Positions 968-11,215 of a DNA stretch of 47,459 nucleotides are shown here, one piece after another. This DNA comes from Carboxylicivirga fragile. Its GTDB lineage: Bacteria; Bacteroidota; Bacteroidia; Bacteroidales; Marinilabiliaceae. Numbering within the stretch: position 1 is the stretch's first letter; each line of letters opens with the position of its first letter. The stretch is taken from positions 1 to 47,459 of the forward strand of contig JAFMVD010000046.1 in the NCBI GenBank assembly GCA_025499625.1, in the 5' to 3' direction. The position numbers were made by a program, and so were the translations under genes. A model generated the notes under the pieces. The model was given only the letters and a program-made list of their open reading frames with translations, made no database searches and was not told the DNA's origin.

Positions 968-2320
968 TCATACCGCTCCTTGCGATAACATGGCGTCAGC
1001 AACTTTAACAAAGCCGCCAATGTTAGCACCATCAACGTAATTAATGAATTCATTGTCCTTGGTGCCGTATTGTACGCAGGTTTCGTGAATGCTACGCATA
1101 ATATTTTGTAAGCGATTGTCCACTTCTTCGCGCGACCACCCTATACGCATACTGTTCTGGGTCATTTCTAAACCCGATACGGCTACACCACCAGCGTTGG
1201 CTGCTTTTCCCGGGCCAAAGAGTATGCGCTTATCCAGGAACACCTGAATAGCTTCAGGCGTAGATGGCATGTTGGCACCTTCCGATACGCACATGCATCC
1301 ATTCGAAACTAAGGTAATGGCTTCTACTTCGTTAATCTCGTTTTGTGTGGCACTAGGCAGGGCAATGTCTGCTTTTTCACCCCAAGGTCTTTCGTTTTCT
1401 ACATACTTTACCTTGTATTTATCTGCATATTCACTGATGCGACCACGTTTAATATTTTTCAGATACATCACGAATTTTAGCTTTTCATCGTCGATACCAT
1501 CCTTATCGTAAATGTATCCGCTTGAATCGCTCAGGGTTACTACCTTGCCACCTAATTCGTTTACTTTCTGAACAGTGAATTGTGCTACATTACCAGCTCC
1601 CGAAACCAATACGGTTTTTCCTTCAAATGTCTCACCACGTGTTTTTAGCATTTCGCGGGCAAAGTAAACATTACCATAACCCGTGGCCTCTGGTCGTATT
1701 ACACTACCGCCGTAATTGAGGCCTTTGCCAGTAAGTACGCCCGTAAATTCATTTCTTATGCGCTTGTACTGGCCAAAGAGGAAACCTATTTCGCGTCCTC
1801 CTACGCCAATATCACCAGCAGGCACATCGGTATTTGGCCCAATGTGGCGATACAATTCTGTCATAAAGCTTTGGCAGAAACGCATCACTTCATTGTCAGA
1901 TTTGCCTTTGGGGTCAAAATCACTACCGCCTTTACCACCTCCCATAGGCAGGGTTGTTAAGCTATTTTTAAATACTTGTTCGAAAGCCAAAAACTTGAGA
2001 ATACCTAGGTTGACTGTTGGGTGAAAACGTAAGCCACCTTTGTAAGGTCCAATGGCACTATTCATTTCAATGCGAAAACCACGGTTAACGCACATGTCGC
2101 CTTTGTCGTTAACCCAAGGCACCCGAAACATAATGATACGCTCAGGTTCAACAATACGTTCAAGCACACGGGCATGTTTGTATTTGGGGTTTTCATCAAG
2201 GAAGGTGTTTAAAGACTCAACAACTTCGTGTACTGCCTGATGGAATTCAGGTTCAGCAGGATTCTTAGCCATTAAATCGGCCATAAAGGCATTGATGCCT
2301 AATGAAGAAGTGTGTGACAT
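968..2320 (-). CDS. gdhA: Glutamate dehydrogenase, hexameric, probably NADP-dependent
   Basis: This cytoplasmic enzyme interconverts 2-oxoglutarate plus ammonium and glutamate. At 450 residues it has the length of the small hexameric class, close to E. coli GdhA. All signature residues are present: the substrate-site lysine in GPYKGGLRF (K94), K118 in FKNSL, the catalytic lysine in [14 protein letters not shown] (K130), the catalytic aspartate in PAGDIGVGG (D170), the nucleotide fold motif SGAGNVAQ, and the C-terminal [20 protein letters not shown] preference is inferred from overall resemblance to E. coli GdhA. The gene diverges from the receiver/ATP-grasp operon at 2564 across a 243-bp region with two dyads, and has its own terminator. 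A catalytically altered paralogue lies at 9878-11215. Confidence 0.97.
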
Positions 2321-2456
2321 ACAACTAGCTTTTTAAAATTGATTTGTTAACTGAGTTTTATATTGAGTAATCTAAATTCTGATACTACAAACACATTATT
2401 TCTCAAGCGTAATTATCAACCAACTAGCACATAGGTTTCATCCCCCAATTACAAAG

Positions 2457-2464
2457 AAAAGTTA
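2457..2464 (-). promoter_or_regulatory. Possible gdhA -7 box
   Basis: On the minus strand TAACTTTT matches seven of eight positions of the Bacteroidota -7 consensus TAnnTTTG. It implies a leader of about 130 nt in front of gdhA. No clear -33 TTTG is seen; that region overlaps the dyad at 2473-2497. Confidence 0.25.
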
Positions 2465-9841: not shown

Positions 9842-9877
9842 AGAAACATTAGGATTTCGATCCACAAGATAGAGCTT

Positions 9878-11215
9878 ATGAACTTAGAACGTTTTTTACT
9901 ACAGTTAGAACAGAATAATCCTGAAGAACCGGAATTTATTCAAGGGGTTCGTGAGTTTTTAAGTTCGGTTAATGAACGTATTAAAGATGATTTTCGCCTA
10001 GCTCATGCAGGTATTCTGGAGCGCATTACAGAACCCGATCGTGTGTTTGTATTTAAAGTGCCATGGTTAAACGATCAAGGTAAGGTGATGGTGAACCGAG
10101 GCTATCGGGTGCAGTACAATAATGCACTTGGTCCATATAAGGGAGGTTTGCGCTTTCATCCGGCACTCACGCTTGGTACGGTAAAGATGTTGGCCTTTGA
10201 GCAAGTATTTAAAAATAGCCTCACCTCTCTTTCTTTGGGTGGTGCTATGGGAGGTGCTAATTTCGACCCGAAGGGAAAATCCGAAGCGGAGATAATGCGT
10301 TTTTGCCAAAGCTTTGTATTGCAATTATGGGATTTATTGGGTTCCGATATGGACATACCTGGTGGAGATGTTGGCGTTGGTGGACGTGAAGTGGGTTATC
10401 TATTTGGGATGTACAAAAGGCTAACTCGTAAGCATAGTGCCGCATTTACGGGAAAAGGACCTGAATGGGGTGGTACAAGTTTGCGTGCTGAATCAACAGG
10501 TTATGGGGTTATCTATTTTCTGAATGCCATGCTTGCTGAGCACAATGATAGTATCGAAGGAAAAATAATTTCAGTTTCAGGATTTGGAAATGTGGCTTAT
10601 GGTGTCATTCGAAAAGCCAATGAGCTGGGGGCAAAAGTTGTGACACTTTCCGGACCAGATGGATATATTCACGATCCAGAAGGTATTACGGGAGATAAGT
10701 TAGATTATTTGGTGGAGCTAAGAGCTACCTCACAGGATCTGGTTCGGCCTTATTCCATTGAATATCCGGGTACAGCTTACTTCGAAGGAGAGAAGCCTTG
10801 GAATGTGCCATGTGATATAGCCATACCATGTGCTATTCAAAACGAAATTGGTGATAAGGAAGCTCGCCAGTTGATGGCTAATGATTGTAAGTATGTGGTT
10901 GAAGCCGCTGATAGGCCTTGCACATCGGATGCAATGGATTTATTTGATAACAACGGAATAGTATTGGCGCCGGGAAAGGCAGCTAATGCCGGAGGTGTTG
11001 CCGTATCGGCTTTGGAGTTGGCACAGAATACCATGAAGATGAATTGGAGTGATAAGGAAGTTGACCAACGCCTTAAAGATATTATGGAACGAATCTATCA
11101 GCAATGCCGTATTCATGGTGCTAAATCAGATGGAACAGTTAATTACCGCGATGGTGCTAATTTGGCATCATTCCATCGGGTAGCTGAAGCAATGATTGAT
11201 CAGGGGGCTGTTTAA
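9878..11215 (+). CDS. Glutamate dehydrogenase paralogue lacking the catalytic lysine
   Basis: 445 residues, collinear with GdhA over the full length. K88 (GPYKGGLRF), K112 (FKNSL), D164 (PGGDVGVGG), the nucleotide motif SGFGNVAYG and the C-terminal [16 protein letters not shown] are kept. The catalytic-lysine motif GGGKGGS is changed to GGAMGGA: the codon at 10247-10249 is ATG, giving Met124 where GdhA has K130. Further site changes are SDSSGY to SGPDGY and EGANMP to EAADRP. The frame is intact and otherwise well conserved, so it is probably a functional protein that no longer performs the standard reaction, or does so very poorly. As last gene of the receiver/ATP-grasp operon it may be a ligand-sensing partner, or a regulatory subunit mixing with GdhA. 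This role is inferred. Confidence 0.85.
   Translation: MNLERFLLQLEQNNPEEPEFIQGVREFLSSVNERIKDDFRLAHAGILERITEPDRVFVFKVPWLNDQGKVMVNRGYRVQYNNALGPYKGGLRFHPALTLGTVKMLAFEQVFKNSLTSLSLGGAMGGANFDPKGKSEAEIMRFCQSFVLQLWDLLGSDMDIPGGDVGVGGREVGYLFGMYKRLTRKHSAAFTGKGPEWGGTSLRAESTGYGVIYFLNAMLAEHNDSIEGKIISVSGFGNVAYGVIRKANELGAKVVTLSGPDGYIHDPEGITGDKLDYLVELRATSQDLVRPYSIEYPGTAYFEGEKPWNVPCDIAIPCAIQNEIGDKEARQLMANDCKYVVEAADRPCTSDAMDLFDNNGIVLAPGKAANAGGVAVSALELAQNTMKMNWSDKEVDQRLKDIMERIYQQCRIHGAKSDGTVNYRDGANLASFHRVAEAMIDQGAV

Follow-up and report, generated by a model that had tools for sequence, protein, structure and literature searches.

Receiver/PPDK_N proteins encoded beside glutamate dehydrogenase genes in Carboxylicivirga fragile and other Bacteroidota

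The stretch of DNA analysed here, referred to as the window, comprises 47,459 nucleotides of Carboxylicivirga fragile contig JAFMVD010000046.1 (contig C81 of genome G000 in our numbering). It contains four adjacent genes: gdhA, two genes encoding proteins A and B, which combine receiver domains with an ATP-grasp domain of the PPDK_N family, and a gene for an altered copy of glutamate dehydrogenase (GDH). The gdhA gene is located on the minus strand (968..2320, 450 aa) and encodes a normal NADP-type GDH with matches to PF00208 and PF02812, a score of 760 bits against the NCBIfam NADP-GDH equivalog (cut-off 536) and the lysine of the GG.KGG motif in place (Lys130, codon 1931-1933). Beyond a divergent intergenic region of 243 bp (2321..2563), the genes for protein A (2564..6793, 1409 aa), protein B (6851..9841, 996 aa) and the GDH copy (pGDH, 9878..11215, 445 aa) follow on the plus strand. 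Because the gaps between A and B and between B and the GDH copy are only 57 bp and 36 bp, respectively, these three genes look like a single operon. In the GDH copy, the GG.KGG lysine is replaced by Met124 (codon ATG at 10247-10249), and most other conserved GDH residues are retained. The positions of all four open reading frames were exactly those given in an earlier account made from the DNA letters (the sequence-only reading), and its description of a normal gdhA divergent from an operon of receiver-PPDK_N proteins and a GDH copy was confirmed by the open reading frames, the domain matches and the methionine at the GG.KGG lysine. No TAnnTTTG promoter element was found in the 243-bp gap between gdhA and A, and an Rfam scan of the window gave no match reaching the gathering score. 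Among named records, the closest matches of B came from Carboxylicivirga and other Marinilabiliaceae. The same genome encodes a third paralogue, protein C, on contig C57, and a third GDH on contig C11, both elsewhere than on the window contig; the third GDH gene lies close to the end of C11.

Proteins A and B have a similar domain order, and all of the domain coordinates given here are on the plus strand. Protein A starts with three copies of a module of about 120 aa (residues ~20-400, 2621..3763), followed by receiver 1 (3896..4318, approximate bounds), receiver 2 (4316..4828, approximate bounds), the PPDK_N domain (5129..6241) and a C-terminal domain named after its GRWG and HFF motifs (6281..6790). 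Protein B consists of receiver 1 (6935..7345) and receiver 2 (7343..7840), both with approximate bounds, a middle region, the PPDK_N domain (8156..9304) and the C-terminal domain (9314..9838). The sequence-only reading had described two receiver/ATP-grasp proteins with input sensors; the receivers and the PPDK_N domains hold for both proteins, and the input-like repeats are found in A only and not in B. The N-terminal module of A had no credible Pfam or PDB match, the PDB profile search returning only chance-level hits. The same module recurs at G000:C129:44031-44498 (locus L276), in an open frame of 2125 aa that also encodes PAS, HAMP and MCP-type sensor domains.

Each of the two proteins has two receivers of different character. 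The Pfam Response_reg model scored 35.6 bits for B, above its cut-off of 30.2, and 24 bits for A, below it; the receiver detected in this way is receiver 1, which lacks the phospho-accepting aspartate. Methionine occupies that position in both proteins (Met510 in A; Met91 in B, codon 7121-7123), and Trp143 stands at the lysine position in B. Across 207 A, B and C proteins, the phospho-Asp position of receiver 1 was Met in 156, Thr in 43, another residue in 3 and a gap in 5. Receiver 2 is divergent, and its key residues are present. In A it carries the motifs EDS, ISD, QSS and NKYS, with E599, D600, D670 and K723 invariant in 12/12 close rows of the alignment; in B the corresponding residues are D180, D249 (7595-7597), S283 and K302. 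Among those of the 207 proteins with an aligned letter, D249 and K302 were each conserved in 203/203. Receiver 2 was recognised by Response_reg in 16 of the 31 scanned stretches (best E value 1.1e-6). The window's own B gave no Response_reg match in receiver 2, so that its identity as a receiver rests on the motif and on its relatives; its PDB profile matches were weak, and several of them were receivers.

The PPDK_N domain was matched with E values of 3.5e-37 in A and 7.8e-38 in B, and also in 28/28 rows of B relatives. K440, R531, E779, Q798 and R800 mark the site in B. Counting aligned letters among the 207 proteins, K440 and R531 were each conserved in 206/206 and E779 and Q798 each in 205/205, and position 800 was R or K. 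These invariant residues fit the known catalytic set of phosphoenolpyruvate (PEP) synthase and pyruvate phosphate dikinase (PPDK). Neither A nor B had a Pfam match to the PEP-utiliser phospho-His domain PF00391, which was found in a single protein of this genome, on contig C44, that is not A, B or C; nor did either match the C-terminal PEP/pyruvate-binding domain.

The C-terminal domain follows the pattern GRWG...D...S.G.HFF. Its only invariant histidine in B is H921 (9611-9613), which corresponds to the invariant His of GSHFFHN in A. H921 was conserved in 205/205 of the A, B and C proteins with an aligned letter, and the histidine was also present in 28/28 further relatives, most of them without these receivers. 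The GRWG, D, S.G and HFF elements were invariant in 36/36 diverse rows, a comparison from which rows lacking GRWG would have been excluded and from which none was; among the 207 proteins, the GRWG tryptophan was replaced by tyrosine in one. This domain had no credible Pfam or PDB match either, its PDB profile search again giving only chance-level hits. An hhalign comparison with 20 PPDKs failed its positive control, since even PPDK_N itself was poorly recovered. In eight of eight loci (L246:4279-9215 and likewise L247-L253), a receiver-less gene for a PPDK_N + GRWG/HFF protein of ~580 aa lies directly upstream of a gene for a PPDK_N + GRWG/HFF protein of ~1061 aa. A nucleotidyltransferase domain was matched in one scanned PPDK_N + GRWG/HFF protein of 1064 aa and in a 913-aa relative (L240).

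The GDH copy contains both ELFV dehydrogenase domains, the N-terminal (PF02812, E value 3.7e-46) and the C-terminal (PF00208, 4.5e-79). Its residues 3-445 scored 609 bits against the NADP-GDH equivalog; because this is above the cut-off of 536, an automatic annotation pipeline would probably call the protein active. However, the lysine of the GG(G/A)KGG motif, which is the catalytic lysine in Clostridium symbiosum GDH, has become methionine, and PAGD has become PGGD. In gdhA numbering, the departures at near-invariant positions are P125S, K130M, A168G, G194A, A212S, N350D and M386L. K94, K118 and D170, the substrate-carboxylate lysines and the catalytic aspartate, are all retained, and most substrate- and nucleotide-site residues are kept despite the loss of the catalytic lysine. 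In an alignment of 113 distinct GDHs, the GG.KGG lysine position held Lys in 101, Met in 11, all from the clade of the GDH copy, and no motif in 1; the GDHs termed active were defined by this motif, so that their lysine is true by construction and it is the 101/11/1 count that is informative. Loci L035-L064 were left out of this alignment and of the tree derived from it.

When the 60 nearest genomes were searched, the GDH copy was found in 12 of them, namely 10 of the 14 genus members (own genome included) and two others, and methionine occupied the catalytic-lysine position in 12/12. The ratio of nonsynonymous to synonymous substitution rates (dN/dS) was 0.019 in a pair with a moderate synonymous divergence (dS 0.26) and 0.025, a rough value, in a pair with dS 2.9; three more pairs were saturated. 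The GDH copy thus looks to be under purifying selection, and because of the uniform methionine and the low dN/dS in two pairs, the Lys-to-Met change is not a chance event. In the tree, built with a quick method, the GDH copies formed a single clade (support 83, not starred) separate from gdhA, adjoining the GDH that follows B in genome G472 (L161) and the far outgroup. The protein is therefore a conserved and probably inactive GDH. B-associated GDHs in other lineages retain the GG.KGG lysine. At one locus of another genus member (L138:3716-8085), a TatD, asparaginase and ExbB/ExbD set lies between the third GDH and gdhA.

The B family is widespread. Relatives of B were present in 57 of the 60 nearest genomes, and 254 of the 295 Bacteroidales genomes sampled encode B-family proteins (E <= 1e-50). 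In a draw of 296 genomes from the phylum, 113 had matches to B at E <= 1e-3; in 40 of these, our own genome included, the match covered most of the length, and the remaining matches were partial or receiver-only.

To describe the linkage, GDH genes were counted within 5 kb of B, using the first B per locus only. A GDH was found in 13 of 60 Bacteroidales loci; outside the class, 26 of 32 loci had one (11/12 and 15/20), as did 6/16 and 6/10 loci of two further sets. Restricting the count to loci with 5 kb or more of sequence on each side gave 9/44, 5/6, 9/14, 4/7 and 0/1 for the sets of 60, 12, 20, 16 and 10, respectively. By chance, a GDH would lie within 5 kb in about 0.7% of loci, assuming about two GDH genes per 4-Mb genome, a number taken from 116 matches in the 60 relatives and counted in those relatives only. 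The 60 Bacteroidales loci came from the first 76 rows ranked by similarity to B; 5 of these rows had already been sampled, and 11 were excluded by visual inspection because they lay close to the start of a contig, a rule applied unevenly, since G506 and G578 stayed in. Outside the class, the 32 loci were made up of 12, several of them picked for two-copy genomes, and 20 from the remaining 24 genomes with a full-length match. The four genomes left out were G287, G239, G247 and G330; G247 has a GDH just upstream of B (L254), and the A-like locus of G330 (L152) has no GDH.

Protein A was also linked to GDH: of 27 A loci, counting the window, 16 have a GDH no more than 5 kb away. In eight other loci (L106, L109, L138, L158, L197, L203, L208 and L214), gdhA is divergent from A at a distance of 173-362 bp, as in the window. 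Several arrangements occur across Bacteroidota. The gdhA gene may diverge from A, a GDH may follow or precede B, or GDH and B may alternate in double cassettes (GDH-B-GDH-B), which were found outside the class in L139-L146. Both the arrangement and the GDH subfamily vary from lineage to lineage. Genome G059 has A next to gdhA on one contig (L109) and B next to another GDH on a second contig (L108). Outside the class, a GDH gene precedes B on the same strand for 31 of 40 B proteins. The GDHs of clade X accompany one B clade and those of clade Y two, the only exception among the 31 being L147. The link between receiver/PPDK_N proteins and GDH therefore recurs in several arrangements and is far wider than the sequence-only reading could see. 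Locus tags of Bacteroides thetaiotaomicron taken as lying near gdh proved to be a wrong lead, BT_1971 being a catalase.

The co-occurrence across relatives thus extended to the pairing with GDH and not to the four genes as a unit, which are mostly apart in the sampled Bacteroidales. The fixed four-gene system that had been proposed was not upheld: B stands without a GDH within 5 kb in 47 of the 60 Bacteroidales loci, A is near B in only 10 of them, and 12 of the 60 nearest genomes have the GDH copy. As a unit, the four genes are lineage-specific, whereas the pairing of GDH with A or B is not.

What is observed is a GDH pairing in part of the family, a phosphorylatable-looking receiver 2, a complete-looking ATP-grasp site and an invariant C-terminal histidine. 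Based on these features, A and B may well represent a Bacteroidota family of phosphorylation-switched ATP-grasp proteins working with GDH, a reading that we prefer and hold tentatively. It is also favoured by the 2-oxoacid:ferredoxin oxidoreductase genes beside A or B in some loci and the histidine kinase and NarL genes near others, both described below, and by the uniform methionine, single clade and low dN/dS of the GDH copy. The ATP-grasp domain would phosphorylate, or otherwise modify, a group using ATP, perhaps the invariant C-terminal histidine. Receiver 2 would act as an on/off switch, loaded from that histidine or from a partner kinase. The input would be the glutamate, 2-oxoglutarate or ammonium state, and the output either control of the partner GDH or transcription via an associated NarL-type regulator. 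In the window, A with its input-like repeats would be paired with the active-looking gdhA, and B with the GDH copy, for which the most likely predicted role is that of a ligand-binding (glutamate, 2-oxoglutarate or NADPH) sensor subunit of B or a regulatory subunit of an active GDH. The phosphorylation, the protein contacts, the signal, the role in nitrogen or glutamate metabolism and the phosphotransfer chemistry are what we infer from the genes. A more specific form of this reading appears doubtful: a phosphorelay free of histidine kinases, in which a PEP-synthase-type ATP-grasp domain would charge the GRWG/HFF histidine and pass the phosphate to the aspartate of receiver 2 in the same or a partner chain, and GDH would gate the relay as a nitrogen sensor, a role filled by a live GDH in many Bacteroidota and, in the Carboxylicivirga lineage, by a dead GDH dedicated to it.

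Several observations weigh against a family of phosphorylation-switched proteins working with GDH. Most Bacteroidales loci have no GDH within 5 kb of B (35 of 44 when both flanks reach 5 kb or more), the same holds for 10/16 and 4/10 loci of the two further sets, and no GDH was found at any of the four C loci (L127, L134, L135 and L137). The loci are related, so that binomial figures for the enrichment are only indicative and overstate independence, and matched GDH and B clades can arise by duplication of a linked segment. The C-terminal domain has no detectable similarity to the PEP-utiliser phospho-His domain. The origin of the GDH copy is unsure, its placement near the L161 GDH and the far outgroup being a possible long-branch effect. 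Since no match to it was found in 4 of the 14 genus members, it is dispensable in some species. Furthermore, NuoF and NuoG/Nfn-like molybdopterin genes precede B in L180, L196, L198, L201, L205, L207 and L213 (domains scanned in L180 only), together with NuoE except in L196. Because some B genes follow such operons instead of GDH, the function of A and B may be wider than GDH. Partial A-like genes were seen farther upstream of the Nuo-like genes in L207 and L213.

In L107, L110, L112, L172, L182, L188 and L194, A or B is immediately preceded on its own strand by genes for a two-subunit 2-oxoacid:ferredoxin oxidoreductase. Six of these seven loci have a GDH downstream, and in an eighth locus one subunit lies beyond gdhA (domains checked in L110 only). 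The name 2-oxoglutarate oxidoreductase was rejected for the upstream enzyme, as Pfam and PDB support only a 2-oxoacid:ferredoxin oxidoreductase and one of five PDB matches was named 2-oxoglutarate synthase. Together with the Nuo/Nfn-like genes, these neighbours would suit receiver-controlled ATP-grasp metabolic enzymes, either phosphotransferases or ligases, whose substrate is a small molecule made from glutamate or 2-oxoglutarate; GDH would then be a neighbour in the pathway, and the dead GDH would be kept for binding or structure. The complete PPDK_N catalytic set, the best NCBIfam matches, which include the PPDK_N ligases PigC and RedH (far below cut-off), and the conserved GRWG...D...HFF domain, which could serve as an active site, are consistent with such enzymes. 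We nevertheless consider this explanation rather unlikely: two receivers per chain and the histidine kinase and NarL neighbours of some loci are signalling traits, and the proteins have no PEP/pyruvate domain match and no known product.

An ordinary two-component branch, in which receiver 2 takes its phosphate from a conventional histidine kinase and PPDK_N is the enzymatic output of the response regulator, has to be weighed as well. In L141-L144 and L233, gdh-B cassettes contain or adjoin genes for a PAS-HisKA_3 kinase and a NarL-type regulator. A NarL-like regulator stands beside A in 6 of 27 loci, following A within 30 bp in five of them and lying 6 bp away in divergent orientation in the sixth. 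In the window's own genome, the gene for protein C is near genes for a TPR-HisKA_3 kinase and a NarL regulator. The accessible part of one census also counts the receiver-PPDK combination as a response-regulator architecture (PMC5847659). However, none of the 10 scanned open reading frames neighbouring the genes in the window encodes a kinase or regulator, although the contig starts just beyond gdhA, and only 2 of the 60 Bacteroidales loci contain genes resembling the kinase or regulator of L143, a comparison that did not seek other kinase types. A conventional branch is unlikely in our view. At the same time, the placement of the system outside the histidine-kinase scheme by the sequence-only reading is unproven, given that such genes adjoin gdh-B cassettes, A and paralogue C.

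It is highly improbable that the linkage carries no function, with GDH and A/B simply being neighbours in a conserved part of the chromosome and the dead GDH a duplicate in decay: B kept without a nearby GDH in many Bacteroidales and the absence of the dead GDH from four genus members would agree with it, but the different GDH subfamilies, sides and strands in different lineages, the GDH enrichment in separate samples and the low dN/dS and uniform Lys-to-Met change of the dead GDH argue against it.

Other genes of the window were also noted. A pyridoxamine-phosphate-oxidase-like domain fused to a GNAT acetyltransferase is encoded at 12980-14002, and a bacterial GPP34 (Golgi phosphoprotein 3-like) protein at 19479-20153. 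The prolyl oligopeptidase at 15032-17209 belongs to one family with that at L150:9617-11779, a locus of another Bacteroidales family, and both are near GDH/B genes.

The recurrent pairing with GDH provides a handle on the function of at least part of the B family and points to the 2-oxoglutarate/glutamate node, and the conserved dead GDH in C. fragile suggests an unexplored control of nitrogen metabolism. If A and B do form phosphorylation-switched partners of GDH, nitrogen would be controlled by a new mechanism in a phylum that matters both in guts and in the sea. The case would also show how receiver signalling took over a metabolic ATP-grasp domain, and the conserved dead GDH would serve as a natural probe.

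Known systems resemble this one in part. RocG and GudB of Bacillus are trigger enzymes that, with GltC, show how a GDH can double as a sensor of nitrogen status via a protein partner; in that case the GDH is active and its partner is a DNA-binding regulator of the LysR type. The actinobacterial proteins GarA and OdhI exert phosphorylation-dependent control of GDH and 2-oxoglutarate dehydrogenase at the 2-oxoglutarate/glutamate node, but this system relies on an FHA protein and Ser/Thr kinases and has neither receivers nor an ATP-grasp domain. PEP synthase and PPDK have the PPDK_N ATP-grasp domain in common with A and B, whereas A and B have receivers in place of a match to the PEP-utiliser histidine domain or the PEP/pyruvate-binding domain. 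PigC and RedH are among the top NCBIfam models for the PPDK_N stretch of A and B, with scores of only 37-51 bits against cut-offs of 1300-1350. The receiver-PPDK combination has been noted as Bacteroides-like and in three Heimdallarchaeota (PMC5847659), and Asp-less receivers have been described as highly associated with pyruvate phosphate dikinases (PMC4395418). Going by the accessible parts of these two censuses, A and B probably belong to the proteins counted there, which share the domain combination and, in PMC4395418, the Asp-less receiver; unlike what is described here for A and B, those parts give no function, second receiver, unnamed C-terminal domain or GDH partner. A paper on pseudo-receivers (PMC12632262), searched with four terms, contained no mention of the receiver-PPDK combination, and the literature searched, outside which most subscription papers lie, held no functional study of receiver-PPDK proteins and no link to GDH. 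As far as the available text of PMC3663545 goes, a catalytically dead paralogue of deoxyhypusine synthase activates its partner, which provides, in an unrelated enzyme and organism, a precedent for a conserved dead copy serving as an allosteric subunit.

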